Positions 25,339 to 39,884 of a stretch of 64,000 nucleotides of DNA are shown here, one piece after another. The DNA comes from Flavobacterium limi. GTDB lineage: Bacteria > Bacteroidota > Bacteroidia > Flavobacteriales > Flavobacteriaceae. The notes beneath the pieces are model-generated. The model did no database searches. It had not been told where the DNA came from and worked only from the letters and a program-made list of their open reading frames with translations. Position 1 is the first letter of the stretch; each line of letters opens with the position of its first letter. Location of the stretch: assembly GCF_010645075.1 (NCBI RefSeq), contig NZ_JAADZV010000001.1:806001-870000 (forward strand), read 5' to 3'. A program made the translations under genes and the position numbers.

Positions 25339-25914
25339 ATGGCAATAAATTTACAAAAAGGTCAGAAAATTGATATTGGTTTATCGAAGATTACAGTTGG
25401 GTTAGGATGGGATCCAAATGAGGGTACCGGACATGAGTTTGATTTAGATGCTTCAGCAATCATGATAAATTCAAACAGAAAACTTTTAGGGGAAAATTAT
25501 TTTGTTTTCTATAATAACCTTTCTTCTCCTGATGGTGCATTAGAGCATACAGGGGATGATCCAACGGGAGGTAATAGTGACGGAGATGATGATGAAGCAA
25601 TAAAAGTAGATCTTAGTAAAATTGAAAATGCTGTAGAAGAAATTCTTTTTGTAGTTACAATTGAAGATTTTGAGAGGAGAAAACAAAACTTCGGACAAGT
25701 TAGAAATTCATATATAAGAATTGTCGATGATGCCAACGGTCAGGAAATTGCGAAATATGAATTAGATGAAGACTTTTCTATTGAAACCGGCGTAGAGTTT
25801 GGAAGGTTATATAAACGCAATGGTAATTGGAGATTTGAAGCATCTGGGATTGGTTACCGAGCAGATTTAGGTTTCTTTCTGGAAAAGTATTATTCTGGAG
25901 AAATAATTAAATAA
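25339..25914 (+). CDS. TerD-domain protein 1
   Basis: A 191-residue TerD-fold protein, a calcium-binding cytosolic domain linked to tellurite and other chemical stress. It starts MAINLQKGQKIDIGLSKI and has VGLGWDPNEG, FDLDASAIM, the acidic calcium-site region GDDPTGGNSDGDDDEA, and the C-terminal signature KQNFGQVRNSYIRIVDD, EDFSIETGVEFGRLYKRN. The frame opens at a TTG at 25327, but the ATG at 25339 aligns with its paralogues. It is the first gene of the 14-kb Ter block and is separated from the next gene by 166 bases, longer than any other gap in the block. Confidence 0.95.
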   Translation: MAINLQKGQKIDIGLSKITVGLGWDPNEGTGHEFDLDASAIMINSNRKLLGENYFVFYNNLSSPDGALEHTGDDPTGGNSDGDDDEAIKVDLSKIENAVEEILFVVTIEDFERRKQNFGQVRNSYIRIVDDANGQEIAKYELDEDFSIETGVEFGRLYKRNGNWRFEASGIGYRADLGFFLEKYYSGEIIK

Positions 25915-26080
25915 GATTAGCTTTAGAATAGTTTACTCATTTAACATATTCATAATTTTATTTATTTCCTGGGAAAAAACATAAAATTTAATATTGTTAA
26001 ACTGCTTTAGTGAATCATTTTTGAGTTTTCAGCTTGATTGATGTACTCTGAAATAATATTACCGACTAAAATAAATACTA

Positions 26081-26746
26081 TTGAAAATAAATTATGAAAA
26101 TTACAGCCATCTTTCTTTTGACCTGTGGCTTACATTAATAAAATCGAATCCTGAATTTAAACAAAAAAGAAATTTATTGTTTAGGGATTTTTTTGAAATT
26201 GATCAATCAATTGAAAAAGTAAATGAAGTTGTAAGGTATTATGACGTTCTGTGCAATAATATTAACGAAAACACAGGGTTAAATATAGAAACATACGAAA
26301 TATATTATTTAATTTTAGGAGCTTTAAATGTAGATCTTAGAAGATATGGAACAGATAAGCTATCTCAGTTTTACAATCATACTGAGGAATTGTTTTTAGA
26401 ATATAAACCAGTTTTAATTTTTACTGATATTCAAAAAATGTTTGATGATATTACTAATCAAGGTAAAACAATCAGCGTTTTAAGTAATACAGGTTTCATT
26501 AAAGGGTTTACATTACAAAAGCTATTAAAATATTACGGTTTGATTGATTATTTTAAGTTTCAGATTTACTCTGATGAAGTTGGATTTTCTAAACCAAATA
26601 CAGAGATTTATCAATTAGTATTTGATGAAATTAATAAATTTAAAAAAGTAGAGAAAAAAGATATTTTGCATATTGGCGATAATAGTATTGCCGATTACAA
26701 CGGAGCTTTGAAATTTGGTTTTAATGCTCATCTCTTAAAAATATAA
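26081..26746 (+). CDS. HAD-superfamily protein of the Ter cluster
   Basis: A 221-residue HAD-fold hydrolase. Motif I is SFDLWLTLI with nucleophile D14; the D+2 position is W16, so the usual acid/base Asp of HAD phosphatases is missing, as in dehalogenase-like members. Motif II is LSNTG (134-138), motif III K171 (SKPNTEIY) and motif IV GDNSIAD (199-205). The start is TTG at 26081: the in-frame codons upstream hit a stop, and a nearby ATG is in another frame. It ends 2 bases before the PRTase gene. HAD and PRTase proteins occur in published Ter operons, where a nucleotide-like metabolite has been proposed. Confidence 0.85.
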   Translation: MKINYENYSHLSFDLWLTLIKSNPEFKQKRNLLFRDFFEIDQSIEKVNEVVRYYDVLCNNINENTGLNIETYEIYYLILGALNVDLRRYGTDKLSQFYNHTEELFLEYKPVLIFTDIQKMFDDITNQGKTISVLSNTGFIKGFTLQKLLKYYGLIDYFKFQIYSDEVGFSKPNTEIYQLVFDEINKFKKVEKKDILHIGDNSIADYNGALKFGFNAHLLKI

Positions 26747-26748
26747 AA

Positions 26749-27555
26749 GTGAATAAAAGTTACAGTTTACATAAAATAACAGAAAAAGATAACTGCCCTT
26801 TTGAGGAACCAGAATATAGCAGGTTTAAATTTGGAGATAAATTCTACGCAGAAAAATTCGCGGAAGAGCTCTTTGACGGTTTTGTTAAGCAATTTAAAGA
26901 TATAATTTTATCTGAAAAAGAGATTGTAATCCTGCCGAGTCCTTACTTATCTATTCCAACAGCATCCAACTTTTTATGTTATTATTTTAAAAAAGAGCTT
27001 AACAGTTTCTTGTTTAAAAATGGTAAAAAAGCCTGTATTGAATCTAAAATTTACAGAAATCAGACCTATGTAACAGATTATGGAAATTTGGATTTTGAAC
27101 AGCGGGTTAAACTAATTTCGAATGACACCTATTATATAGACCGTAATTTTATCGAAGGTAAGCTTTGCATATTTGTGGATGATATTAAAATAACAGGGAG
27201 TCATGAACATACTGTAAATAAAATCCTGGATCAATATGATGTCAAAGGAGATTTTGTGTTCGTATATTTTGCAGAATTAGTAAACAAAGACATTCATCCG
27301 AAAATAGAAAATCACTATAATTATTTTGCTGTAAAAAATGTAGAAGATATCGTTTCTATAGTGAATAGCGAAGATTTTCAATACAATACACGAATCGTAA
27401 AATTTATTTTAAGCCTTGATGATAAACAATTTGCATTTTTGATATCTAATATTTCAAGAAAAAAAAGCAATGAACTATTTCATCTTGCAATAAGTAATAA
27501 TTACCATCAGATTTTAGAGTATAAAAAGAATATTAACGTAATAAAAATAGATTAG
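26749..27555 (+). CDS. Phosphoribosyltransferase-fold protein of the Ter cluster
   Basis: A 268-residue protein starting with GTG two bases after the HAD gene. The PRPP-binding motif is LCIFVDDIKITGSHEH, with V143-D144-D145 and T149-G150-S151, the recognisable 'VVDD..TTG' signature of type I PRTases. N-terminal strands (IVILPSPYLSIPTASNF) fit the core. Such PRTases are known partners of TerD and TelA genes. Whether it transfers a phosphoribosyl group or works in reverse is unknown. The tail (about 215-268) is charged and unassigned. Confidence 0.82.
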   Translation: MNKSYSLHKITEKDNCPFEEPEYSRFKFGDKFYAEKFAEELFDGFVKQFKDIILSEKEIVILPSPYLSIPTASNFLCYYFKKELNSFLFKNGKKACIESKIYRNQTYVTDYGNLDFEQRVKLISNDTYYIDRNFIEGKLCIFVDDIKITGSHEHTVNKILDQYDVKGDFVFVYFAELVNKDIHPKIENHYNYFAVKNVEDIVSIVNSEDFQYNTRIVKFILSLDDKQFAFLISNISRKKSNELFHLAISNNYHQILEYKKNINVIKID

Positions 27556-27558
27556 ACT

Positions 27559-28113
27559 ATGGCTATCAATTTGCAAAAAGGACAAAGAGAGAATATAAAT
27601 GCACCAAAATTTACTATTGGTTTAGGATGGGACACTAATAACAGCAGTACAGGTTCGGGTTTTGATCTTGATGCCTCTGTTTTTATTCTTGGAGATAACG
27701 GAAAAATTTTATCTGACTCTCATTTTGTTTTTTACAATAATCTAAAATCTCCGGATGAAGCTGTTATTCATACAGGAGATAACCTGACAGGTGATGGTGA
27801 CGGAGATGATGAGCAAGTAAAAATTGATCTGACCAAAATTAATCCTTCTGTAAAAGAAATTTGTATTGTGGTTACCATTCACGATGCTGTAAACAGAAAA
27901 CAAAATTTTGGGCAAGTTAGAAATTCATTCATCAGAATTGTAGACGACAGCAATAATACTGAAATGGTTAAATATGAATTAGAAGAAGATTTCTCCATAG
28001 AAACAGCGGTTGAATTTGGAAGGATTTACAATAAAGACGGTCAATGGAAATTTGAAGCAAAGGGTGTGGGTATGAAAGGCGGATTAGAAGATTACTTAAA
28101 TAAATATAACTAA
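27559..28113 (+). CDS. TerD-domain protein 2
   Basis: A 184-residue TerD-fold protein: MAINLQKGQRENINAPKF, TIGLGWDTNNSSTGSG, FDLDASVFILGD, the acidic calcium-site loop GDNLTGDGDGDDEQ, then FGQVRNSFIRIVDD and EDFSIETAVEFGRIY. It ends KGGLEDYLNKYN. It is clearly closest to TerD protein 4 (30831), sharing almost all signature blocks and the tail. It starts 3 bases after the PRTase stop and lies 3 bases before the next TerD gene. Role: probably a stress-responsive calcium-dependent protein at or near the membrane (family knowledge). Confidence 0.96.
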   Translation: MAINLQKGQRENINAPKFTIGLGWDTNNSSTGSGFDLDASVFILGDNGKILSDSHFVFYNNLKSPDEAVIHTGDNLTGDGDGDDEQVKIDLTKINPSVKEICIVVTIHDAVNRKQNFGQVRNSFIRIVDDSNNTEMVKYELEEDFSIETAVEFGRIYNKDGQWKFEAKGVGMKGGLEDYLNKYN

Positions 28114-28116
28114 GAT

Positions 28117-28725
28117 ATGGCAATTAATTTAGAAAAAGGACAACGTATAAATCTTGAAAAAAGTAACGGTACAAAATTACAAAATATTTGTGTTGGAGTA
28201 AACTGGGGAGCAATTGAAAAAAAGGGATTCTTTGGTACAAAAAAAGAAGCTGTAGATTTAGATGCGAGCTGTGCGGTTTATGATGATAAAAAAAATCACA
28301 TTGATTCAGTAAACTTTAGAAAATTAATTTCGAGTGATCGTGCTATTAAACATAGTGGAGATGATTTGACAGGAGATTTAAATGGAGATGACGGATTGGA
28401 TAATGAAGTTATCACTTTAGATTTTACTCAATTAACACCGGCAGCAAATCACGTTGCATTTTTTATAAACAGTTTCAGAGGCCAGGATTTTAAAGATATT
28501 CCATTTGCTTCTATTCGTATTTATGAAGGAACTCCAACAAGAGTGACTCAGGAATTTGCACGTTTTGATGTTGCAAATGATGCAACTTTCGCCGGAAACG
28601 TTTCTATGGTTTTAGGCGTTTTCTATAAGAGAAACGACGAATGGAAATTTAGTGCAGTGGGTGTACCAACAAATGATAAGAAACTTGAACAGACAATTGT
28701 AACAATTCAACAGAATCACTTATAG
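28117..28725 (+). CDS. TerD-domain protein 3 (TerX/TerF-like type)
   Basis: A 202-residue TerD-fold protein of a second subtype. It starts MAINLEKGQRINLEKSNG and has CVGVNWGAIEKKGFFGTKK, VDLDASCAVYDDKK, the acidic loop GDDLTGDLNGDDGLDNE, and a C-terminal half with IPFASIRIYEGTPTRVTQEFA. The calcium-site acids are retained. It pairs with TerD protein 2 (3-base gap) and its counterpart after duplication is TerD protein 5 at 31403. TelA follows 2 bases after the stop. Confidence 0.94.
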   Translation: MAINLEKGQRINLEKSNGTKLQNICVGVNWGAIEKKGFFGTKKEAVDLDASCAVYDDKKNHIDSVNFRKLISSDRAIKHSGDDLTGDLNGDDGLDNEVITLDFTQLTPAANHVAFFINSFRGQDFKDIPFASIRIYEGTPTRVTQEFARFDVANDATFAGNVSMVLGVFYKRNDEWKFSAVGVPTNDKKLEQTIVTIQQNHL

Positions 28726-28727
28726 TC

Positions 28728-29816
28728 ATGTCAGAAAATCAATTAGTTACTCAGGAGAATTCTGCTTTAATTGATAAAGACGGAAATGTAAATTTAGCTT
28801 CGATTACTGAAGCTGATGTAAATAATTACAAATCTATTTCTAGTCAGTTAAACGAGAATGACGCCAATTCAATTCTGAATTATGGTGCCGAAATTCAAAA
28901 CTCTATTGCGAAACAGAGTGATACTTTCTTAACAAATGTTAGAACTTATAATTCGGGAGAGGTAGGAACTTTGATTAACGACCTGCTTACTGAATTGAAT
29001 TATGTAGATGTTGATCAGTTAGATCAAGGTCCGTTTAAAAGATTCATTTCTAAAATTCCATTACTCAATAAGTTAATTGTCGATGTAAAAAAATTATTCC
29101 AGGAATATGATCGAATTACTGTAAATATTGAAAAAATCAGTAATAAGGTTAAAGCAGGAATGATTAATTCTGTCAAAGATAACAGTGCCCTTCAGACCAT
29201 GTTTGACGGTAATGTGAATCTGATTAAGGAAATGGAAAAGCATATCATAGCAGGACAGATTCGTTTTAAGGAATTAAATGAAGAACTTGCCGTAATGGAA
29301 GGAAACAGTGCTCAGTATCAGGATTACCAGATTTCTGATAAGAGAACTTTCATTAACAGGCTGGACAAGCGCCTGGCTGATATGAAGATTGTTCGTTTTA
29401 TAATGTTGCAGTCACTTGCGCAGATTAGAGTAGTGCAAAATAATAATACTTCTATCGCGGAGAAAGCACAGTCCATTTTGACTACTACAATGCCGGTATG
29501 GAAAAACCAGCTTACCCTAGCCGTAGCATTACAAAGACAAAAACAGAATATTGAAGTTCAGCGTAGAGTTTCTGAAACAACTAATACGATTTTGCAGAAA
29601 AATGCAGAAATGCTAAAACAAAATAGTATTGAAGTTGCCAGAGAAAACGAAAACACTATTGTTTCTCTGGAAACGCTAAAAATGACAACCAAATCATTAA
29701 TAGATACTTTGACAGAAGTAAAACAAATTCACGATCAGGGTACAGAAACAAGAAGACAGCTGGACGCAGGTTTACAAAGTCTGGAACAGGAATTAAAAAA
29801 AGGCGTTGTAAGCTAG
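28728..29816 (+). CDS. telA: TelA-family toxic anion resistance protein
   Basis: A 362-residue, almost entirely helical protein: long amphipathic helices with the conserved family segment LGxF-like 'RFISKIPLLNKL', 'ERQIRFKELNEELAVMEGN'-type and WKNQLTLAVALQRQKQN, then QRRVSETTNTILQKNAEMLKQNS. This is the TelA (toxic anion resistance) family, found with TerD in Ter operons. TelA has no assigned enzymatic role. It begins 2 bases after the TerD protein 3 stop and is followed by a gene of unknown function. Confidence 0.93.
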   Translation: MSENQLVTQENSALIDKDGNVNLASITEADVNNYKSISSQLNENDANSILNYGAEIQNSIAKQSDTFLTNVRTYNSGEVGTLINDLLTELNYVDVDQLDQGPFKRFISKIPLLNKLIVDVKKLFQEYDRITVNIEKISNKVKAGMINSVKDNSALQTMFDGNVNLIKEMEKHIIAGQIRFKELNEELAVMEGNSAQYQDYQISDKRTFINRLDKRLADMKIVRFIMLQSLAQIRVVQNNNTSIAEKAQSILTTTMPVWKNQLTLAVALQRQKQNIEVQRRVSETTNTILQKNAEMLKQNSIEVARENENTIVSLETLKMTTKSLIDTLTEVKQIHDQGTETRRQLDAGLQSLEQELKKGVVS

Positions 29817-29852
29817 AAAATTTACAGAAATTGAATATTGGAAATTAGATAA

Positions 29853-30821
29853 ATGCAGGAGGAAGAAGAAGAAAGGTATCTTCAAATAATAAAAGACAGT
29901 AACAGAAAACTTGTGGTTTTAGAATTGTTATCCAATTTCTTTAACCACAAGGATCTGGTCGGCATTCTGGTAAGGACAAAAATCATTCATACTCTTTTTG
30001 AAAAGAACCGGATATTAGATATTAATAAATTAGAGCTCTTTCATATTCAGTTTACAAGCAGTCTCATTGATTTGTTTCAAAAAATTAAAAAATCAAAAGA
30101 ACAGCAATATGTTTTAATCAGTGATGAAATATATATTAATGAAGATATTTTATCAAAATTAAAACTGGAAATAGGAGAGAGTAAGTTTGCTAAACAAATG
30201 CAGCTTCACGCTCAAAATATGTCCAGAAAGATAGAAGAACTCTATCAGTTATTTGTTTCTGAAAAAGATGTTTTTTTTAATTGGAATGATTTAATGACTT
30301 TTTCTCAAAGTGTTCAGGCAGAATATTACAGGGAAATAACAATTGACCAGTACGAAAGGCTTTCACAGTTAAATAAAAGTGTATATGAAAATCCACATGC
30401 TAAATTTGAAAAAAAACTTTTAGGTCGTCTTAACATTTTAAAGTTTAAAATTAAGTTTTCCTGCGGACTGGTTTGTAATAATGAAATAATTGAAGTTTAT
30501 GAGTTTAGGGATTCTAACGATAAATTTGTTTTTGTAGCGAATGAGAAATCATTTTATTTTTTGAACGAAGAAGATGTAAAAGATATTGATATTTCAAAAA
30601 ACGGATCTGCAAAAGAAGAAATTATAAGAGGTTTGAAAAATAAAAATGCAGAATTGAAAAGAGAACTTAGTGTCTTAAAAACAACGTTGCCGGAAAACGT
30701 TTTGGAAGTATTAAGGGAATATCATGAAAAAATTTCATCGGTAGATTTTCTGGAAGAATTACAAAATGTTGATGAACAAACCAATATTTTAAAAACAATG
30801 TTGAATATAAATATTAATTAA
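29853..30821 (+). CDS. Unknown helical/coiled-coil protein in the Ter cluster
   Basis: A 322-residue protein I do not recognise. It starts with an acidic head (MQEEEEERYLQIIKDSNR), continues with long predicted helices (KKSKEQQYVLISDEI and FAKQMQLHAQNMSRKIEELYQLF), has a short beta-rich region around 200-245 (LVCNNEIIEVYEFRDSND, FVFVANEKSFYFL) and ends in a coiled-coil tail (EEIIRGLKNKNAELKRELSVL). No signal peptide or membrane helix. It is placed between TelA and TerD protein 4 on the same strand, 36 bases after TelA and 9 before TerD. Its position suggests a component of the Ter system; that is inference. Confidence 0.8.
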   Translation: MQEEEEERYLQIIKDSNRKLVVLELLSNFFNHKDLVGILVRTKIIHTLFEKNRILDINKLELFHIQFTSSLIDLFQKIKKSKEQQYVLISDEIYINEDILSKLKLEIGESKFAKQMQLHAQNMSRKIEELYQLFVSEKDVFFNWNDLMTFSQSVQAEYYREITIDQYERLSQLNKSVYENPHAKFEKKLLGRLNILKFKIKFSCGLVCNNEIIEVYEFRDSNDKFVFVANEKSFYFLNEEDVKDIDISKNGSAKEEIIRGLKNKNAELKRELSVLKTTLPENVLEVLREYHEKISSVDFLEELQNVDEQTNILKTMLNININ

Positions 30822-30830
30822 AAATATAAA

Positions 30831-31382
30831 ATGGCAATTAACTTAGAAAAAGGACAAAGACAGAGTATAGATGCACCAAAATTTACTGTAGGTCTTGGAT
30901 GGGATAGTAATTCAAGCAACACAGGATCAAGTTTTGATGTAGATGCTTCGGTATTTTTAGTTGGTGCAAACGGAAAAATTCCGAATGATAACCATTTTGT
31001 TTATTACAATAATTTAAAATCACCTGATGGGGCAGTAGTTCATGCAGGAGATAATTTAACCGGTGATGGTGATGGTGATGATGAAAAAATCCAGATTGAT
31101 CTATCGGTAATCTCTCCGGATGTTCACGAAATTTCTTTCGTAGTAACTATTCACCAGGCAGATACCAAAAGACAGAACTTTGGACAAATCAGAAATTCAT
31201 TCATCAGAATTCTGGATCAGACAAATACTGAATTGGTTAAGTATGAGTTGGATGAGGATTTTTCTATTGAAACTGCAGTAGAATTTGGAAGAATCTATAA
31301 AAGAAACAACGAGTGGAAATTTGAAGCAGTTGGTATAGGAATGAAAGGTGGCTTACAAGATTATTTGAATAAATATAACTAA
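30831..31382 (+). CDS. TerD-domain protein 4
   Basis: A 183-residue TerD-fold protein: MAINLEKGQRQSIDAPKF, TVGLGWDSNSSNTGSS, FDVDASVFLVG, the acidic loop GDNLTGDGDGDDEK, FGQIRNSFIRILDQ, EDFSIETAVEFGRIYKRN and the tail KGGLQDYLNKYN. It is the duplicate of TerD protein 2, with most of the signature blocks identical. It lies 20 bases before TerD protein 5, repeating the order seen at 27559-28725. Confidence 0.96.
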   Translation: MAINLEKGQRQSIDAPKFTVGLGWDSNSSNTGSSFDVDASVFLVGANGKIPNDNHFVYYNNLKSPDGAVVHAGDNLTGDGDGDDEKIQIDLSVISPDVHEISFVVTIHQADTKRQNFGQIRNSFIRILDQTNTELVKYELDEDFSIETAVEFGRIYKRNNEWKFEAVGIGMKGGLQDYLNKYN

Positions 31383-31402
31383 TTTAAAACCAATTAAAAA
31401 GT

Positions 31403-32062
31403 ATGGCAATTAACTTAACCAAAGGACAAAAAATTGATTTGCGAAAATCAAGCGGTGAAACATTAACCAATTTTTGCGTCGGTGTAAACTGGGGTGCAAT
31501 TGAAACAAAAGGATTTTTAGGATTATCAAAAAATGTAACAGAAGTAGACTTAGATTTAAGCTGTGTACTTATTGATGACCAAAACAAACTTTGTGATCAT
31601 TTATATTCTCCATTGTACAGAGTCGAGGTATTACAGCAGTTTGGTTTACCAAAAGGTAAATTAGTAAGTGTTGACGGAGCTCTAAAACACACTGGCGATG
31701 ATCTTGCCGGAGATACAGGCGGTGATGACGGTTTGGATAATGAAATTATTACCGTGGACCTTTCTAAAGTTGATGCCAAAGTTAATCAGATATTTTTCTT
31801 TTTAAATAATGCAGGAAAAGAAGATTTCTCTCAGATTCCATATGCAAAAATCAGAATGTATGAGGGTACACCAACGAGAGTAGCTTCAGAATTTGCATCT
31901 TATAATGTTTCTGCTGAAGCTCAATATGTGAACAAACGCTCTATCATTATGGGGAAATTATACAAGCGTAATGGTGAATGGAAGTTCAGTGCCATTGGTG
32001 ACCCTACAGATGATACCTTTCTAGGTCAGACTATTCATAAAATCGTTCAGTCTTACCTGTAA
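31403..32062 (+). CDS. TerD-domain protein 5 (TerX/TerF-like type)
   Basis: A 219-residue TerD-fold protein: MAINLTKGQKIDLRKSSG, CVGVNWGAIETKGFLG, VDLDLSCVLIDDQN, the acidic loop GDDLAGDTGGDDGLDNE, and IPYAKIRMYEGTPTRVASEFA at the C-terminal half. It has a small insert relative to TerD protein 3 around residues 70-85 (SPLYRVEVLQQFGLPKGK). It is the duplicate of TerD protein 3. Its stop (TAA) overlaps the next start by one base (TAATG), which shows translational coupling. Confidence 0.94.
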   Translation: MAINLTKGQKIDLRKSSGETLTNFCVGVNWGAIETKGFLGLSKNVTEVDLDLSCVLIDDQNKLCDHLYSPLYRVEVLQQFGLPKGKLVSVDGALKHTGDDLAGDTGGDDGLDNEIITVDLSKVDAKVNQIFFFLNNAGKEDFSQIPYAKIRMYEGTPTRVASEFASYNVSAEAQYVNKRSIIMGKLYKRNGEWKFSAIGDPTDDTFLGQTIHKIVQSYL

Positions 32063-32475
32063 TGCAGATCAAAAATATAGAAGGACTAAGCGTTTCGCAG
32101 ATTCGGGACATGGTTCAGCAAGGAGGTAAGTTTGTTGTATTTCCATACACAATATCATTTATATTAATGACTTTAAAAAGAAGTTCTGATATTTATTTCA
32201 TTAAGGCAGATGAAAATACTTTTAAGTATTCGTATGGTTTTGTTTTTCTAAACTTAATTGTTGGCTGGTGGGGATTCCCATGGGGGCCTATTTATACTAT
32301 AGGTTCTGCCTACCACCATATTGTAGGAGGTAAAGATCTCACTTTAGAGATTATGAGTCATTTAACCCAGCATGATCCGGAAGCTAATACCAGCTCTTAC
32401 AATATTAATGGTGTTGAAAGCTCAAACCAGGGTAGTGGAAATACCGAAACTCCAGTTTACAATATTCCTGTATAA
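32062..32475 (+). CDS. Small membrane protein coupled to TerD
   Basis: A 137-residue protein starting inside the stop of TerD protein 5. Residues about 22-100 show a recognisable family motif: GKFVVFPYTISFILMTLKRS, then FKYSYGFVFLNLIVGWWGFPWGPIYTI, with two hydrophobic segments separated by polar turns. Similar sequences are widespread in bacteria, to my knowledge, without an assigned role. The C-terminal 35 residues are Asn/Ser/Gly-rich and probably flexible. Coupling to terD and position before the vWA genes place it in the Ter system as a likely membrane-associated part. Confidence 0.75.
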   Translation: MQIKNIEGLSVSQIRDMVQQGGKFVVFPYTISFILMTLKRSSDIYFIKADENTFKYSYGFVFLNLIVGWWGFPWGPIYTIGSAYHHIVGGKDLTLEIMSHLTQHDPEANTSSYNINGVESSNQGSGNTETPVYNIPV

Positions 32476-32486
32476 AAATAACAACC

Positions 32487-33125
32487 ATGAGAAGACTGCC
32501 TGTATACTTATTAATAGACACATCGGGTTCAATGACCGGAGAGCCAATTGAAGCTGTTAAAAATGGCGTTCAGATGATGATTAGTTCGTTAAGACAAAAT
32601 CCTCAGGCGATTGAAACTGCTTTTCTAAGTGTGATTACTTTCGATACTACAGCGCAGCAAATTATTCCGCTAACTGATTTGGCTTCTTTTCAAATGGTCG
32701 ATCTTAAAGCAACCGGTGTGACTTCGCTGGGAGAAGCATTAAGACTGACCGCTAATAAAATAACAACTGAAGTTGCGCAAACAACAACAGAGCAAAAAGG
32801 GGACTGGAAACCATTGGTATTTATAATGACTGACGGGATTCCAACAGACAATTGGGAAAGCGGATTGGAAGAATTTAAAAAAGCAAAAATTGCTTTTACA
32901 GTTGCCTGTGCTGCAGGTGGAGGAGCAGATGCTGCAATTTTGAAAAGAATCACAGAGAATGTAGTAAGTCTTGATACAGCTGATAGTGCGAGTATAGGAA
33001 AGTTTTTTCAGTGGGTTACCGCTTCGATTGGCGTAACTTCAACCAAAGTCGAAGATTCAGGAAAAGAATTTACAAATTTAAAAGAATTACCTCCGCCTCC
33101 GTCAGAATTAAACATCGTAGTTTAA
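32487..33125 (+). CDS. TerY-like vWA protein 1
   Basis: A 212-residue von Willebrand factor A domain of the TerY type. It starts MRRLPVYLLIDTSGSMTGEP, with the MIDAS residues D11, S13 and S15 in DTSGS, and a third MIDAS element DGIP in FIMTDGIPTDNW. KGDWKPLVFIMTDG is a block shared with the two other vWA proteins here. The C-terminus is ELPPPPSELNIVV. TerY proteins are cytosolic vWA partners of a PP2C phosphatase and a protein kinase (the TerY-P triad, family knowledge); both genes follow downstream. Confidence 0.93.
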   Translation: MRRLPVYLLIDTSGSMTGEPIEAVKNGVQMMISSLRQNPQAIETAFLSVITFDTTAQQIIPLTDLASFQMVDLKATGVTSLGEALRLTANKITTEVAQTTTEQKGDWKPLVFIMTDGIPTDNWESGLEEFKKAKIAFTVACAAGGGADAAILKRITENVVSLDTADSASIGKFFQWVTASIGVTSTKVEDSGKEFTNLKELPPPPSELNIVV

Positions 33126-33263
33126 ACTTGATAGGCGGAGTTTATAGTTTTTTGAGTATTGCATCTTTTAAAAGAAGTTATACCAAGTCAGCATGCCTTT
33201 TTATTTCTCAAACCGAAATAGAAAGTTAGTAATTTCATTGTTATACCATTTTTAAAAAGCAAT

Positions 33264-33899
33264 ATGAGAAGACTACCAGTATATTTTTTATTAGATACAT
33301 CAGGTTCTATGTACGGAGAACCCATTCAGGCTTTAAACAATGCTTTAAGCGGAATGATCAATACCTTACGATCAGATGCTCAGGCCTTGGATTCGCTTTG
33401 GATTAGTATCATAACGTACGATCGGGAAGTAAAAGAAATTGTCCCGTTAACGGAACTAGTTCATTTTCAATTACCTGAAATTACCTGTCCGCAAAGTGGT
33501 CCCACCAATACAGGAGCAGGTCTGGATTTTGTAATTCAAAAAGTAAATACAGAAGTTATAAAAGGTTCAGCCACTCAAAAAGGAGACTGGAAACCGTTAC
33601 TTTTTGTATTTACAGATGGGAAACCTTCAGATATTCAGCTTTACAGACAAAAAACTCAGGAGATTAAAAACCTAAGTTTTGGAGCTGTTGTAGGATGCGC
33701 AGCCGGACATATGGCAAACGATGAAATCTTAAAAGAACTGACAGACAATGTAGTTCATCTGGCTTCTGCCGATAGTTCAACATTGAAACAATTTTTTAAA
33801 TGGGTATCAGAAACCATCGAGCAAGGCAATAAAAGCCAGGGAACCGGAGAAAGTGTTACCTTACCGCCTCCGCCGAGTGAAATAACTGTAGTGATTTAG
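33264..33899 (+). CDS. TerY-like vWA protein 2
   Basis: A 211-residue paralogue of vWA protein 1: MRRLPVYFLLDTSGSMYGEP (MIDAS D11, S13, S15), KGDWKPLLFVFTDGKP, HMANDEILKELTDNVVHLAS and the tail LPPPPSEITVVI, the same as vWA protein 1 apart from conservative changes. It starts 138 bases after the previous stop; the region between holds no recognisable gene. The two probably arose by tandem duplication. Two adjacent homologous vWA proteins could form heteromers (inference). Confidence 0.93.
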   Translation: MRRLPVYFLLDTSGSMYGEPIQALNNALSGMINTLRSDAQALDSLWISIITYDREVKEIVPLTELVHFQLPEITCPQSGPTNTGAGLDFVIQKVNTEVIKGSATQKGDWKPLLFVFTDGKPSDIQLYRQKTQEIKNLSFGAVVGCAAGHMANDEILKELTDNVVHLASADSSTLKQFFKWVSETIEQGNKSQGTGESVTLPPPPSEITVVI

Positions 33900-33901
33900 T
33901 T

Positions 33902-34393
33902 ATGGACGTGCTTTCTTTTATATGTACAGTTTTGCCAATAATTATACATATATATTATAAAATAGAGCAATCATCAGTCGGTAAATCAGGTAAAACTTCT
34001 TATGTAGATTATAGTTACGTAGAAACTTATGTTTTCAGTGAAGAAGAAAAACTTGAGAATATGAATATTGATAGTTTGATTGTATGTTATAATTCAACTA
34101 CAAAAATTAATGATTATTCTCCAAAAAAAGTAGAACAAGCTTTTATTGGAAATACTAATTTAAGAGAAGTAATTGTGAAAGATATCATCGTTAGAAAGAA
34201 TTGCATTTATATAAAAGTTATGTATTCGATACCTTACACAGGTTCAAATAAATGTTACGGGAGTTCTTTTTCTATCAATTATATGAAACCCAATAATTGT
34301 GTTTCTATATACGGATCAGAAAAAATGAATCCTGAAGAAAGAAACACTTTTAAAAATATTTCAAATGAATTATTAGCTGCTCTTTCAAAATGA
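33902..34393 (+). CDS. Unknown protein between vWA genes
   Basis: A 163-residue protein that I do not recognise. It has one short N-terminal hydrophobic stretch (MDVLSFICTVLPIIIHIYY), so it is likely membrane-anchored or exported with the rest outside, and a mixed alpha/beta body (DSLIVCYNSTTKIND, VEQAFIGNTNLREVIVKDI, CIYIKVMYSIPYTG). It starts 2 bases after vWA protein 2 and overlaps the next start by 4 bases (ATGA). Role unknown. Confidence 0.65.
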   Translation: MDVLSFICTVLPIIIHIYYKIEQSSVGKSGKTSYVDYSYVETYVFSEEEKLENMNIDSLIVCYNSTTKINDYSPKKVEQAFIGNTNLREVIVKDIIVRKNCIYIKVMYSIPYTGSNKCYGSSFSINYMKPNNCVSIYGSEKMNPEERNTFKNISNELLAALSK

Positions 34394-34590
34394 TTTTCAT
34401 CAAAATCGCTATTGATGTCCTGATTATCGGCTTGTTTTTATATTCAAAAGTATTGCCCTGTAAAGACAAGTTAATTTCACAGAACAAAGCTATTTTTGAT
34501 TTTTTCAATACTGTTTTTTCGCCTATATTTAATTTTCCTGAAGCCAATGATAAAGCCTTTTTAAGGTTGGAGTCGGTTTGTCGGTTATGA
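34390..34590 (+). CDS. Small membrane protein, unknown
   Basis: A 66-residue protein coupled to the previous gene through an ATGA overlap. It has an N-terminal transmembrane helix (about 3-23, IFIKIAIDVLIIGLFLYSKV) and a second less hydrophobic stretch (FDFFNTVFSPIFNF). No motif identified. The overlap and the fitting spacing to vWA protein 3 (50 bases) support it as a real gene, but small size leaves room for doubt. Confidence 0.5.
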   Translation: MIFIKIAIDVLIIGLFLYSKVLPCKDKLISQNKAIFDFFNTVFSPIFNFPEANDKAFLRLESVCRL

Positions 34591-34640
34591 CGCAGATTGT
34601 TTCTTTTAGTTATTTTTAATATTACTAAATTTCTTTTAAA

Positions 34641-35693
34641 ATGAGAAGATTACCTATATATTTTCTAATTGATATTTCAGAGTCAATGGTCGGAGAGCCA
34701 ATTCAGCAGGTTGAAGAAGGTCTGTCCACCATTATTCAGGCATTAAAAACAGATCCGCATGCGCTGGAAACCGTTTTTGTTTCTATTATTGTATTTGCCG
34801 GACAGCCAAAAACACTGGTTCCACTGCAGGAAATAGTGAGTTTTTATCCACCTAAATTCCCAATTGGCAGCGGTACATCGCTTAGCAAAGGCTTAGGACA
34901 TTTAATGTATGAATTAAGAAGTAATATCGTTAAGACAACTTATGAAGTAAAAGGCGACTGGAAACCAATTGTTTTCTTGTTTACAGACGGGGTCCCTACT
35001 GATGACAGTCAGGCTGCTATTGCTGAATGGAAACAAAACTGGCAGCGAACAGCGAATTTAATTGCGATTTCTTTCGGAAGCGAAACAGATACAAAATTAT
35101 TAGGCGAGCTAACTGAAAATGTGCTTCATTTTAAAAATACAAATGCACAATCATACAAAGAGTTTTTTAAATGGGTAACCGATTCTATTAAAACCAGTAG
35201 CATTAGTGTCGAAAATAATTCTACCGGTTTTGAACTGGCTAAATTAGACGGAGAAACACTTTCTAAAATAGATCTAACCAAAGAAAATCCAAACAGACAG
35301 TATGTTGACGATAATTTTGTGGTTTTAAATGGAAAATGTCAAAATACAAAAAGACCTTATTTAATGAAATACCGCAAAACTATCGCGGAATCTATTTATG
35401 CGGGAATCGAATTATCTTCTAAAAATTATAAATTGGTCGGTGCTTATCAGGTTGATAACTCTTATTTTGAGTTAACTGATTCGGGTAATTTTAGCAACAA
35501 AGTAAATACAGATGAATTAATCGGAGGACCAACTTGTCCGTGTTGTGGTAATCAGATTGCATTTGCGGTTTGTATTTGCCAAAAGATACATTGTATTGGC
35601 GATGAAGAGGTAAGCACCTGCCCATGGTGTAACAATCAGGGAAGCTATGGTTGTGGTGAAGGCGGATTCGATGTAAACAGAACTCAGGGATAA
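34641..35693 (+). CDS. TerY-like vWA protein 3 with Cys-rich C-terminal zinc-ribbon region
   Basis: A 350-residue protein. The vWA domain (1-190) has MIDAS D11, S13 and S15 in DISESMVGEP, and TDGVPTDD at 115-122. The C-terminal region (about 225-350) has ten Cys at 233, 299, 301, 302, 311, 313, 318, 327, 330 and 338, with CPCCG, CICQKIHC and CPWC spacing that fits metal-binding ribbons. This is the TerY-C type of extended TerY. It starts at a point where the phosphatase and kinase follow at 16 and 2 bases, completing the vWA-PP2C-kinase triad. Confidence 0.93.
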   Translation: MRRLPIYFLIDISESMVGEPIQQVEEGLSTIIQALKTDPHALETVFVSIIVFAGQPKTLVPLQEIVSFYPPKFPIGSGTSLSKGLGHLMYELRSNIVKTTYEVKGDWKPIVFLFTDGVPTDDSQAAIAEWKQNWQRTANLIAISFGSETDTKLLGELTENVLHFKNTNAQSYKEFFKWVTDSIKTSSISVENNSTGFELAKLDGETLSKIDLTKENPNRQYVDDNFVVLNGKCQNTKRPYLMKYRKTIAESIYAGIELSSKNYKLVGAYQVDNSYFELTDSGNFSNKVNTDELIGGPTCPCCGNQIAFAVCICQKIHCIGDEEVSTCPWCNNQGSYGCGEGGFDVNRTQG

Positions 35694-35709
35694 CTCACTA
35701 TAAAAAGTA

Positions 35710-37119
35710 ATGGAAGAAACCAAAAGATATCTTCAGTCCTTTTTGTCCCAACATAAAATGGATATTTCTTCAGGTAAAACAGCTCTTTTTGACGAGTTTA
35801 TTGCAAATGAAGAGAATATCCTTGCAGTTAAAATAATTCAGGAAAACCAAAAAATAATCATGCAGAATTGGATTTTGAAAAACAGAATTGACGATGTTTT
35901 GACACAGACTGTAACTATTCCAAACGGTACTGTAAACAAAAAATATCAGGCGAAAATTGATTTTGATGTTTTAGGGTGGAATGATATTATTTATTTTGAG
36001 ATGAAAGGGCTTGAAAAGTCAGGACTTGAGTTTGATTTGGAGGATGAACTATTGTATGGCGTTCCTGAAATAAGCGGTGACCTGAAAATCAAAATTTTAT
36101 TTAGGATTGACGGCGAAGCAGAAGATTCTGTTTTGAATGAAAAAATAATAACACTAATTATTAATCCTGATCCGAAGTCATTGTGGAAAAATTTAGAAAG
36201 CAATAAAAATGATCCATTTTGGAAATCTGATGGCGCTGCAGTTTCAGATCAATTTTTAGACAGAAATATTGTAATTGCTTCCAAAAGAGGAAGAAGCCAT
36301 GCCAACACTGGTTCTTATAGGGAAGATGATTTTGCTTTTAAAAATTTTAGCGAAATTGGATGGAGCGTTATTGCAGTTTCAGATGGAGCGGGTTCTGCGA
36401 GCTTATCCAGAAAAGGTTCGGAATTGGCTTGTAATTCGGTTATTGATTATTTTGAACAAAATTTAAATACCTCCATTTTAAACGAATTTGATCAGGTTTT
36501 AGCTGAACATCATGCAAAAGCAACTGACGAAACATCCAAAAAAATAAGTCATTTTGTCTATGAGAATCTTTCAAAAGCGGCCTATTTTGCCCATCAGAAA
36601 ATTGAAGAAACTGCTTTGAAAAATGAATCCGATCTGAAAAATTTCCATGCAACCTTAATATTTGCCTTAATTAAAAAATATGATTTTGGCTATGCGGTTC
36701 TTACTTTCGGAGTTGGTGATTGTCCAATTGGTTTGCTGAATAAAGATCTGACAGAAATCAAACTGATGAATTGGCTTGACGTAGGTGATTTTGGAGGAGG
36801 AACACGTTTTATCACGATGCCGGAAATTTTCCAAAATGATAAATTCTCTTCAAGATTCGGTTTTAAACTTGTCGATGATTTTTCTTATTTGGTTTTAATG
36901 ACAGACGGAATTTACGATCCAAAATTTGTGGTGGAAGCAAGTCTGGAAAAAATTGAAAAGTGGAACGAATTTCTTCAGGATCTGCAAGGGAACAACGAGG
37001 ACGGAATTAAAGTTGAATTTGATAAAAATAATCCTGAAATTGCGCAGCAGCTTGCAGACTGGATGGATTTCTGGAGTCCCGGAAACCATGATGACAGAAC
37101 TCTTGCTATAATTTATTAG
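35710..37119 (+). CDS. PP2C-type Ser/Thr phosphatase (TerY-P triad)
   Basis: A 469-residue protein. The C-terminal two-thirds (about 188-469) is a PP2C phosphatase: SHANTGSYREDDFAF (ED for metal binding), SDGAGSASLS with D225, LVLMTDGIYD (T397-D399) and GNHDDRTLAIIY with D461 and D462. The N-terminal 150 residues include a segment like a He-PIG immunoglobulin-like domain (IPNGTVNKKYQAKID, then GLEFDLEDELLYGVPEISG). Such fusions are reported for Ter-associated phosphatases, to my recollection. The kinase starts 2 bases after the stop, so phosphatase and kinase are made together and probably act on one target. Confidence 0.92.
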   Translation: MEETKRYLQSFLSQHKMDISSGKTALFDEFIANEENILAVKIIQENQKIIMQNWILKNRIDDVLTQTVTIPNGTVNKKYQAKIDFDVLGWNDIIYFEMKGLEKSGLEFDLEDELLYGVPEISGDLKIKILFRIDGEAEDSVLNEKIITLIINPDPKSLWKNLESNKNDPFWKSDGAAVSDQFLDRNIVIASKRGRSHANTGSYREDDFAFKNFSEIGWSVIAVSDGAGSASLSRKGSELACNSVIDYFEQNLNTSILNEFDQVLAEHHAKATDETSKKISHFVYENLSKAAYFAHQKIEETALKNESDLKNFHATLIFALIKKYDFGYAVLTFGVGDCPIGLLNKDLTEIKLMNWLDVGDFGGGTRFITMPEIFQNDKFSSRFGFKLVDDFSYLVLMTDGIYDPKFVVEASLEKIEKWNEFLQDLQGNNEDGIKVEFDKNNPEIAQQLADWMDFWSPGNHDDRTLAIIY

Positions 37120-37121
37120 AC

Positions 37122-38633
37122 ATGAATACGATTACTGTAAAATCAATTAATGACTCTGCAAAAACCTATCAGTTTGTCGATAACGGTGAACCGATGCGTG
37201 GTGGTGTAAAGGATGTTTATTTTAGTCCTGATAAAAGATATGTAGTAGCTATTTTTAGGGAAAAATTAGATTTTAATCAAAAAGAGAGACTACAAAGGAT
37301 AACCAATAAGTATTTAGCTCAGATTCAAAACGGAGAAGCAGGCGATTATTATTTGAAAGAAGTGTACCGATGGCCTACGGATGTTATTGATTATAATGGA
37401 TTAACAGGAATTGTTGTTCCGATTTACGATGCTAAATTTTTCTTTAAAAAAGGATATGAAACGAGTGATTTAATTCAGGGGAAAGAAAAAAACGGAAAAT
37501 GGTTTGCAGGGTCTAAATTCAGAAATCCGGCATTTCCGCTTCGTGTTGCGAAATCAGAATTAGGGGATTGGCTAAGTTATTTTCAGGTTTGTGTTAACTT
37601 AACCCGCGGCGTAAAAAAAATGCATGCAATGGGATTGGCACATTCTGATTTGTCTTATAACAATGTTTTGATAGATCCGATTCAGAAGTCAGCTTGTATG
37701 ATCGATCTAGACGGATTGGTAGTTCCGGGATTATTTCCGGCAGAAGTTATCGGAACAGCAGAATTTATTGCGCCAGAAGTGCTTTCTACCAAGCATCTTG
37801 ATAAAGCCGATCCGAACCGAAAACTACCAAGCCGATTAACCGACTTACATGCGCTCCCGGTTTTAATTTATATGTTTTTGCTTCACCGTCATCCGCTAAA
37901 AGGCGGAAAAGTACACGATCTGGATACCGAAAAAGATGATTTGTTGTCGATGGGCGAAAAAGCAATGTTTATTGAGCATCCAACAGACCCTATGAACCGT
38001 CCAAAACTCAATCAGGTTTCTAAATGGGATTTGCCCTGGGCAGATATTGATAAACTGCCTTATACACTTACAGGGCCGTACTTGAAAACCTTATTTGATA
38101 AAGTTTTTATTGACGGACTACACAATCCGATGCAGCGTCCAAATGCAGAAGAATGGGAAATTGCTTTATTAAAAACAACCGATCTAATGCAGAAATGCCA
38201 CAACGTTTCCTGCGAGCAGAAATGGTATGTTTTTGACAATACAAACAGTCCAAAATGCCCGTTCTGTGGAACACCGCACAAAGGAACTCTTCCGGTTTTG
38301 GATTTGTATTATCAGTTTCAGGAAACAACATGGAAACCCGAAAATCACAGATTAATGGTTTATAACGATCAATATTTGTTTCAATGGCATGTTAATCGTA
38401 ATATTGCCAGAAATGAGAAATTAACCCAGCTTCAAAAAGTGCCTGTAGGTTATTTTACTTTTTTTAATGATAAGTGGGTGTTAGTCAATCAAAAACTGAC
38501 TTCACTGAAGGATTTAACCGAAGACAAGGAGATTCCAATAGGGACAATGGTGGAGCTTACTCACGGGAAAAAAATACTGCTTTCCAGTGAAGAGGGAGGA
38601 AGAGTGATAGTAGTAACGATGGCCAATACATAA
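37122..38633 (+). CDS. Divergent Ser/Thr protein kinase (TerY-P triad)
   Basis: A 503-residue kinase-fold protein. The catalytic loop is HSDLSYNN (174-181, equivalent to HRDLxxxN), the DFG equivalent is IDLDG (194-198), and an APE motif is present at 217-219 (IAPEV). The start of the N-lobe is GGVKDVYFSPDKRYVVAIFRE; the usual VAIK lysine appears as VAIF, so the catalytic Lys is absent or shifted. The C-terminal region has a zinc-ribbon with C359, C364, C379 and C382, followed by a beta-rich end. Published TerY-P triads combine a vWA, PP2C and kinase; activity needs testing. Confidence 0.9.
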   Translation: MNTITVKSINDSAKTYQFVDNGEPMRGGVKDVYFSPDKRYVVAIFREKLDFNQKERLQRITNKYLAQIQNGEAGDYYLKEVYRWPTDVIDYNGLTGIVVPIYDAKFFFKKGYETSDLIQGKEKNGKWFAGSKFRNPAFPLRVAKSELGDWLSYFQVCVNLTRGVKKMHAMGLAHSDLSYNNVLIDPIQKSACMIDLDGLVVPGLFPAEVIGTAEFIAPEVLSTKHLDKADPNRKLPSRLTDLHALPVLIYMFLLHRHPLKGGKVHDLDTEKDDLLSMGEKAMFIEHPTDPMNRPKLNQVSKWDLPWADIDKLPYTLTGPYLKTLFDKVFIDGLHNPMQRPNAEEWEIALLKTTDLMQKCHNVSCEQKWYVFDNTNSPKCPFCGTPHKGTLPVLDLYYQFQETTWKPENHRLMVYNDQYLFQWHVNRNIARNEKLTQLQKVPVGYFTFFNDKWVLVNQKLTSLKDLTEDKEIPIGTMVELTHGKKILLSSEEGGRVIVVTMANT

Positions 38634-38663
38634 TTTTAAAATTTAACTTAATTAATATTTCAA

Positions 38664-39662
38664 ATGAATCAACACCCCATTTTTTCGGAACATCCCGGTT
38701 TAGTTATCGTTTTTGCGGTTGCAGTACTTATTATGCTATTGCTGGATTTAGGAATTTTCAACAAAAAAAGTCACGTAGTAACCAATAAAGAAGCGATTAC
38801 CTGGTCATTGGTCTGGATAAGTTTAGCCATGATTTTCAGTGGTTTGGTATATCATTTTGCAGGTGCAGCAAAATTCTATGAATTTCAGTCGGCATACTGG
38901 ATTGAAAAAGCACTTTCTGTAGATAACCTGTTTGTTTTTATATTGGTTTTTAAATTTTTTGATGTACAAAACGAGAATAAACACAAAGTTTTATTCTGGG
39001 GGATTATCGGAGCATTGGTTTTACGTGCGATTTTCATATTCTCAGGGGCTTTCTTAATTGAGCTAACGTACTTAAACAAGCTTTTAGGCTTAGCAGGTAT
39101 AGAAGGGTTCAAATACGATATTAACTTAATCATGACTGCTTTTGGATTATTCCTTGTGTATGCAGGAATCAAATCCTGGTCTGCAGGCGATGATGATGAC
39201 GAAGAAGATTACAACAATACAAGAGGAGCGAAACTGATTAGAAAGTTTTTCAGCGTTTCTGATAAATATGATGGTGACAAATTCTTCACATACGAAAACG
39301 GAAAAAAATTAGCAACGCCGCTTTTAGTAGTAGTAGCAGTAATTGAATTTACAGATTTATTATTCGCAGTAGATTCTATTCCGGCAATTTTCGCTATTTC
39401 AAACGATCCGTTTATCCTTTATACATCTAATATTTTTGCAATTTTAGGATTAAGAGCTTTGTTCTTTTTATTGGATAACTTTATTCACTTATTTAGTAAA
39501 CTGCAATATGGACTGGCAATTATTCTTTCTTTCATTGGTATAAAAATGATTATTGCACCATTTTATCACATCGAATCCATTTATTCACTAATTGTTATTG
39601 GAGGTATTCTTGTAATATCGGTATTGTTATCCGTGCTGTTACCTGAATCAAAAGAAGAATAA
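38664..39662 (+). CDS. terC: TerC-family integral membrane protein
   Basis: A 332-residue inner-membrane protein with about seven to nine hydrophobic segments. Conserved acidic membrane motifs are WIEKALSVDNLFVFILV and VIEFTDLLFAVDSIPAIF, the TerC signature. Cytosolic loops carry acidic DDDDEED. TerC members are linked to metal export or metallation of exported enzymes (manganese in some lineages, family knowledge) and to tellurite resistance. It is the last gene in the Ter block, 30 bases after the kinase; a strong terminator follows. Confidence 0.95.
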   Translation: MNQHPIFSEHPGLVIVFAVAVLIMLLLDLGIFNKKSHVVTNKEAITWSLVWISLAMIFSGLVYHFAGAAKFYEFQSAYWIEKALSVDNLFVFILVFKFFDVQNENKHKVLFWGIIGALVLRAIFIFSGAFLIELTYLNKLLGLAGIEGFKYDINLIMTAFGLFLVYAGIKSWSAGDDDDEEDYNNTRGAKLIRKFFSVSDKYDGDKFFTYENGKKLATPLLVVVAVIEFTDLLFAVDSIPAIFAISNDPFILYTSNIFAILGLRALFFLLDNFIHLFSKLQYGLAIILSFIGIKMIIAPFYHIESIYSLIVIGGILVISVLLSVLLPESKEE

Positions 39663-39680
39663 TGAAATTTAGATAAATAG

Positions 39681-39720
39681 AAACGGATGGAAAACTGAAA
39701 TGATTTCCATCCGTTTTTTT
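39681..39720 (+). terminator. Rho-independent terminator of the Ter cluster
   Basis: AAACGGATGGAAA (39681-39693) pairs perfectly with TTTCCATCCGTTT (39704-39716), followed by T. It lies 19 bases after the terC stop and marks the end of the block. Confidence 0.93.
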
Positions 39721-39811
39721 ATGGTTAGAACTGAAGCTTTGTGATTTATAAGCTGAAAATGACAAGTTATTCGTTTTCAAAAGGACAGTCAAAACTTTCA
39801 ATTAATTGTCA

Positions 39812-39819
39812 TACTTTTG
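39812..39819 (+). promoter_or_regulatory. -7 element (TACTTTTG) upstream of the ABC-F gene
   Basis: An exact match to TAnnTTTG, 65 bases before the ATG at 39885. No TTG is at the expected -33 position. Confidence 0.4.
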
Positions 39820-39884
39820 CACTTTCAAAAAGTAAAGTAATAAGGTGCTTAAATCTTTATTGCTGATACTGATAGTCACAAATT

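Follow-up and report, generated by a model that had tools for sequence, protein, structure and literature searches.

What Ter systems sense is a long-standing open question, and we asked what a Ter locus of Flavobacterium limi can add to it. The locus lies in a stretch of 64,000 nucleotides (nt), hereafter the window (assembly GCF_010645075.1, contig NZ_JAADZV010000001.1, positions 806,001 to 870,000), of which positions 25339-39662 hold 18 open reading frames (ORFs) on the forward strand that the ORF list and Pfam identify as a Ter block. The original prediction had described a Ter block of about 14 kb, and Pfam bears out its gene set: five TerD-domain proteins, TelA, a HAD-superfamily protein, PRTase_3, three vWA proteins, PP2C_2, Pkinase and TerC. 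TerD-domain proteins, TelA and TerC, the combination by which we recognise a Ter system, thus share one neighbourhood here; four further genes are referred to as U298, U320, U339 and U343. We read the locus as a Bacteroidota-type Ter stress or conflict island that is gained or lost as a unit and in which U339 would be an exchanged specificity subunit, a reading to which we assign a probability of about one half. As for the original prediction as a whole, the Ter block and its triad of vWA protein, phosphatase and kinase stand, whereas its flavobacterial peculiarity was overstated and the gene proposed at 34390 is a remnant.

The reading centres on U339 (33902..34393), a polymorphic cassette gene directly downstream of vWA2. 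Across 21 sequences (one genome per species was sampled), median pairwise identity of U339 is 45%, compared with 91-95% for the surrounding TerD, TelA and vWA genes, and grouping by eye from the identity matrix gave at least six allele types (A to F), mostly 40-50% identical between types. Specifically, DNA identity between the window and F. hydrophilum (locus L002) is ~90% along the operon, 45-71% across U339 and then 91%, and the synonymous divergence (dS) of this pair is 1.47 in U339 versus 0.26-0.78 in neighbouring genes. The gene is nonetheless intact in 20 of the 20 relatives' loci that carry it, and the ratio of nonsynonymous to synonymous divergence (omega) within type A is 0.11, which means purifying selection on the alleles. 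Strong positive selection as the cause of the divergence was rejected, given this low omega and the fact that silent sites diverge too.

To compare U339 types with the history of their surroundings, a flank tree was built from five operon genes (vWA1, vWA2, vWA3, TerX2 and TelA). The type changes 8 times on this tree, against a mean of 8.7 for shuffled labels, and 54 of 200 shuffles gave a value as low, so that types are spread over the tree as shuffled labels would be. Fully supported sister pairs differ in type (D in the window and A in L002; A in L005 and B in L004; A in L009 and B in L006 and L033), and under the approximately unbiased (AU) test the grouping given by the flank tree is rejected for L006, L009 and L033 (p 1e-7) and, more weakly, for the window with L002 (p 0.037). 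Distances in U339 correlate with those in core genes at 0.21, versus 0.46-0.80 for other genes and 0.31 for the nearly invariant TerX2. In five pairs of unlike type, identity falls at the vWA2 stop codon and recovers within or just past U343, whereas two same-type pairs show no drop across U339. Among 300 Flavobacterium genomes, the U339 family was found only at Ter loci. Considering the intact copies, the low omega, the discordance with the flanks and the occurrence at Ter loci only, we infer that these are old, maintained alleles rather than a decaying or fast-evolving gene, and the comparisons show, at the level of sequence, that they are exchanged by recombination through the conserved flanks. 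When L006 and L033 were compared separately, the segment from U339 to U343 was 94-100% identical per 50-nt bin and its flanks mostly 88-98%, which hints at a recent exchange.

In most types, U339 is predicted to have a hydrophobic N-terminal helix and an alpha/beta domain that faintly resembles KA1 domains. Searches of its sequence against Pfam, NCBIfam, PHROGs, PADLOC and the Protein Data Bank (PDB) returned nothing credible. Assignment to the KA1 family was rejected, as the top fold matches (4yom; E 8.6e-4, template modelling score 0.36-0.51) are too weak to name a family; weaker fold matches were to other small alpha/beta domains and to one uncharacterised phage protein (E 1.3e-4).

The block as a whole occupies a fixed site. 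The spacing between the DUF983 and ABC-F genes is 14.8 kb in the window versus 53 to ~440 bp at empty sites, at which the two genes lie side by side and which we found in 10 sampled relatives without PRTase_3. In most carriers the block stands between these two genes, beside gldN; in F. salmonis (genome G384, locus L034) the site is empty and the Ter block is elsewhere in the genome. PRTase_3 is present in 29 of the 300 sampled Flavobacterium genomes; a sample of Flavobacteriaceae with one genome per genus gave no further genome with it. Given that the site is empty in relatives and holds 14.8 kb here, the block is an accessory Flavobacterium island that comes and goes as a whole. Neither an integrase nor a tRNA gene was seen at its edges, and tRNA-linked insertion was rejected, as no tRNA was found within the window. 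In content the island is mostly ordinary, with the recurrent gene order and the reduced biosynthetic form discussed below: 34 related loci share its gene set and order wholly or in part, the same order was found in more than 20 Flavobacterium loci, and shorter versions occur in Chryseobacterium, Empedobacter and Epilithonimonas.

Within the block, TelA (28728..29816; Pfam PF05816, 5.4e-91) is followed by U298 (29853..30821), a helical, coiled-coil protein. A profile search detected U298 in 11 of 346 Bacteroidota genomes, and in all 11 its gene comes immediately after that of a Ter-type TelA. Apart from these, a single genome (G500) has a strong TelA, which is 28% identical and adjoins a different membrane protein. 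This TelA (locus L126) falls into a separate clade, and its membrane/coiled-coil neighbour looks XpaC-like by eye. In the AlphaFold2 model (predicted local distance difference test, pLDDT, 86), U298 consists largely of helices and has one small beta domain; a fold search against PDB gave no match, and sequence searches against the five resources used for U339 gave nothing credible, which makes U298 a new family. Since every copy follows a Ter-type TelA, U298 is, judged by this linkage, a dedicated and fixed TelA partner in Bacteroidota, and the two proteins may form a physical complex.

The HAD-superfamily gene (26081..26746; Pfam Hydrolase, 2.4e-11) and the PRTase_3 phosphoribosyltransferase gene (26749..27555; Pfam PF15610, 5.9e-91) are adjacent, as in a reduced biosynthetic module; the two families that would complete the enterobacterial type of module (PF15632 and PF15617) were not found with them. 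The original prediction had noted no ATP-grasp or other biosynthetic partner in the block, and this holds for the whole genome: PF15632 gave a single weak match genome-wide, which we rejected as an ATP-grasp encoded elsewhere because it lies in a frame of 957 amino acids (aa) read as carbamoyl-phosphate synthase (CarB), and the TIM-barrel (C-C) lyase PF15617 was found neither in the block or genome nor in 27 relatives that carry the block. A genuine ATP-grasp match does exist in one relative (G421), where it and PRTase_3 share a contig and lie ~239 kb apart. The further suggestion of an unusual, flavobacterial version was overstated, given that HAD and PRTase_3 genes also stand side by side, with no ATP-grasp annotated, on one plasmid each of Hymenobacter (which also holds a Ter block) and Sinorhizobium, in Rhizobium and Xanthomonas phages and in E. 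coli phages (TerC and TelA being close by in the latter), and that a reduced HAD-PRTase form has already been described for a jumbo phage (PMC7824862). Because such pairs are found in phages and plasmids, the block without ATP-grasp is, as far as annotation goes, the known reduced form and not a flavobacterial peculiarity. PRTase_3 relatives are encoded in 154 phage records, and for the Rhizobium and Xanthomonas phages the stretches read show the pair without any annotated Ter gene.

Alignment showed the motif of PRTase_3 that binds phosphoribosyl pyrophosphate (PRPP; loop VDDIKITGSHE) to be intact. By contrast, HAD motif I reads D-x-W-x-T instead of the usual DxDxT (i.e., the second Asp is missing) in flavobacterial, plasmid and phage homologues alike, and a solved HAD structure (PDB 2om6) shares the motif, as DVWNTL. 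Given this replacement, the classical phosphatase reaction should not be assumed for the HAD protein.

How might such an island work? Going by their families, PRTase_3 would couple PRPP with a base-like substrate, and processing of the product by the HAD protein would yield a nucleotide-like signal. TerD-domain proteins may bind metal or this signal and, with TelA, U298 and TerC, form an inner-membrane complex, while the vWA3, PP2C and kinase proteins, whose family membership is clear, could constitute a phosphorylation switch. U339, accompanied by U343 in most relatives, would be a membrane-linked accessory subunit. Its discrete allele families move from species to species by homologous recombination via the conserved genes vWA2 and vWA3; the subunit may determine what is sensed or admitted by the system, and phages or competitors, through frequency-dependent selection, could keep several types circulating. 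Repeated exchange for very different versions is a pattern met mostly in genes for the recognition of enemies or kin, and the swapping of U339 across species may be likened to the swapping of restriction-specificity or immunity alleles in other bacteria. We offer the role of U339 as specificity subunit of a Ter signalling system only tentatively; likewise, that a Ter-based conflict system has in U339 its polymorphic subunit for recognition or allotype, and is thereby tuned to individual phages or competitors and not to metals generally, is a conjecture with odds well below even.

Several points weigh against an island with U339 as its specificity subunit. The allele types were defined after the divergence had been noticed; U339 is dispensable, being absent from blocks of the Chryseobacterium type and from several Flavobacterium blocks that retain the other genes; its predicted model is of moderate quality (pLDDT 69 overall, ~80 in the domain) and contains no recognisable domain; U343 is broken in the window; clear metal phenotypes are known for TerC from other Ter systems (PMC12054061), and they need no recognition subunit; and the argument is built from sequence throughout. 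The block could instead be an ordinary metal or oxidant stress operon, with U339 diversity a by-product of frequent recombination at a permissive, dispensable spot and no recognition role, as would fit the loss of U339 and U343 in L003, L014 and L034, the broken U343 of the window, the presence of other cargo in nearby slots (a macrodomain-like gene in L022, a membrane protein in L021) and the metal phenotypes or predictions for TerC, TerD and TelA (PMC12054061). A neutral passenger, however, would be expected to decay or to vary in identity, whereas U339 is intact and has a low omega within type A, and the same family recurs at one spot and nowhere else in 300 genomes. We consider this explanation possible, though rather less than probable.

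That U339 and U343 make up a small toxin-immunity or addiction-like cassette, whose alleles would represent types of immunity or effector protein and not of sensor, is unlikely: the two genes are short, overlapping, membrane-linked and allele-swapped, and RnlA domains occur among the many weak U339 fold matches, but the pair is not obligate (the window has U339 with a broken U343, and L032 has U339 without an intact U343) and no toxin family was matched in Pfam, NCBIfam or PADLOC. We give very little credence to the unassigned genes standing in for ATP-grasp and lyase in a complete and novel pathway of nucleotide synthesis. The conservation of HAD and PRTase in the genome-wide absence of these two enzymes would fit it, but U298 and U320 have the look of structural or membrane-linked proteins, not of enzymes, and the annotated neighbours of HAD-PRTase_3 pairs on plasmids and in phages, where no profile search was made, do not suggest the unassigned genes.

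Among the remaining genes of the block, TerD1 (25339..25914; Pfam TerD, 2.4e-68) is separable, being gone from L019, L029, L034 and L035, and a fixed TerD1-HAD-PRT unit was rejected on this ground. The other TerD-domain proteins are TerD2 (27559..28113; 2e-72), TerD3 (30831..31382; 3.9e-72) and the divergent TerX1 (28117..28725; 1.8e-31) and TerX2 (31403..32062; 5.2e-31). A DxSGS metal-binding motif is present in both vWA1 (32487..33125; Pfam VWA, 4.5e-14) and vWA2 (33264..33899; 5.4e-15). The triad put forward in the original prediction was recovered by Pfam in one operon: vWA3, i.e., TerY with the TerY_C metal-binding domain (34641..35693; 1.2e-48), the PP2C phosphatase (35710..37119; PP2C_2, 1.2e-28) and a divergent Ser/Thr kinase (37122..38633; Pkinase, 1.1e-8; motifs HSDLSYNN and DLD), past whose kinase domain lie zinc-ribbon cysteines (CxxxxC...CPFC) recognised by eye only. 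The TerC membrane protein (38664..39662; 2.7e-48) is of a block type that differs from the TerC paralogue of relatives without the block (37-44% identical); a block-type TerC (84%) also occurs in a genome without PRTase_3 (G213, locus L102), possibly as the remnant of a lost block.

The block had been described as nearly gapless, with overlapping genes and a strong terminator. The overlaps are real (TAATG at 32062, ATGA at 34390), and TerC is followed by an intrinsic terminator at ~39679..39722, with stem AAACGGATGGAAA...TTTCCATCCGTTTTTTT and a T-run (region fold -21.6 kcal/mol); the gaplessness is interrupted by ~166 nt between TerD1 and HAD, ~138 nt between vWA1 and vWA2 and ~50 nt before vWA3. 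Given these three larger gaps, a single transcript across the block is plausible and likely, not firm. A scan for Flavobacteria-type promoters gave one match, within a coding region, and no riboswitch reached gathering level near TerC or in the block. To the right of the block, 39797-39826 is a likely ABC-F promoter (TTG...TACTTTTGCA, by eye), also seen at some empty sites.

As to the genes listed as unassigned, those at 29853, 32062 and 33902 indeed have no Pfam family, whereas U343 (34390..34590) is a frameshifted remnant and not an intact gene; they recur in Ter blocks of relatives, contrary to the absence that would have spoken against the prediction. U320 (32062..32475; 137 aa) is hydrophobic, bears the motif GWWGxPWGPIYT and is kept in 17 of 34 loci, and is thus a conserved small membrane protein as predicted from these features. 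U343 is intact in most relatives as an 83-aa, two-helix membrane protein; alignment shows the frame, 66 aa long in the window, to be lost here and in L009. In L003, L014 and L034, U320, vWA1, U339 and U343 are gone together, L014 retaining a short piece like the U343 end. F. xueshanense, which lacks U339 at this locus, has the macrodomain-like gene (L022:14611-15120; by eye) between U343 and vWA3. In F. frigoris a 200-aa membrane protein (L021:13702-14304) lies between vWA1 and vWA2, preceded by a 52-aa basic ORF also found in L022 and L024.

Three results go beyond the original prediction: the exchange of U339 alleles, the linkage of TelA and U298, and the nature of the whole block as an island at a fixed site. 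An intact allele gene that is yet swapped between species points to a component of the Ter block under antagonistic selection, and the TelA-U298 linkage names a specific candidate protein partner. If U339 does act in recognition, Ter islands would answer particular phages or competitors, not metals in general.

No convincing PADLOC match to a known anti-phage defence family was found in the block (best, a PD-T4-6 kinase at 4e-5). Compared with Ter systems as founded by Anantharaman et al. (2012), whose content we take from citing papers (PMC7824862, PMC11090510 and PMC12054061), the block shares TerD-domain proteins, TelA, TerC, HAD, PRTase and the TerY-P triad; relative to the systems as described there, it lacks the terZABCDEF order, the ATP-grasp and the TIM-barrel lyase, and adds U298, U320, U339 and U343. 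With the reduced phage Ter module (PMC7824862) it shares adjacent HAD and PRTase_3 genes, sometimes TerC and TelA, and no ATP-grasp annotated nearby, whereas the phage stretches read carry no annotation of the triad or of the unassigned genes. A Hymenobacter monticola plasmid (NZ_CP094537.1) has three TerD and two vWA proteins, PP2C, kinase, a TerC-like DUF475 protein, HAD and PRTase_3 in common with the block; there the HAD-PRTase pair is divergent, no TelA is annotated, and U298, U320 and U339 were not recognised from annotation. Finally, the TerY-P triad, proposed as a phosphorylation switch (PMC11090510), has the same order of vWA with TerY_C, PP2C and kinase with zinc-ribbon cysteines, and stands in the window not beside a restriction system but inside a TerD/TelA/TerC block, together with two extra vWA proteins.

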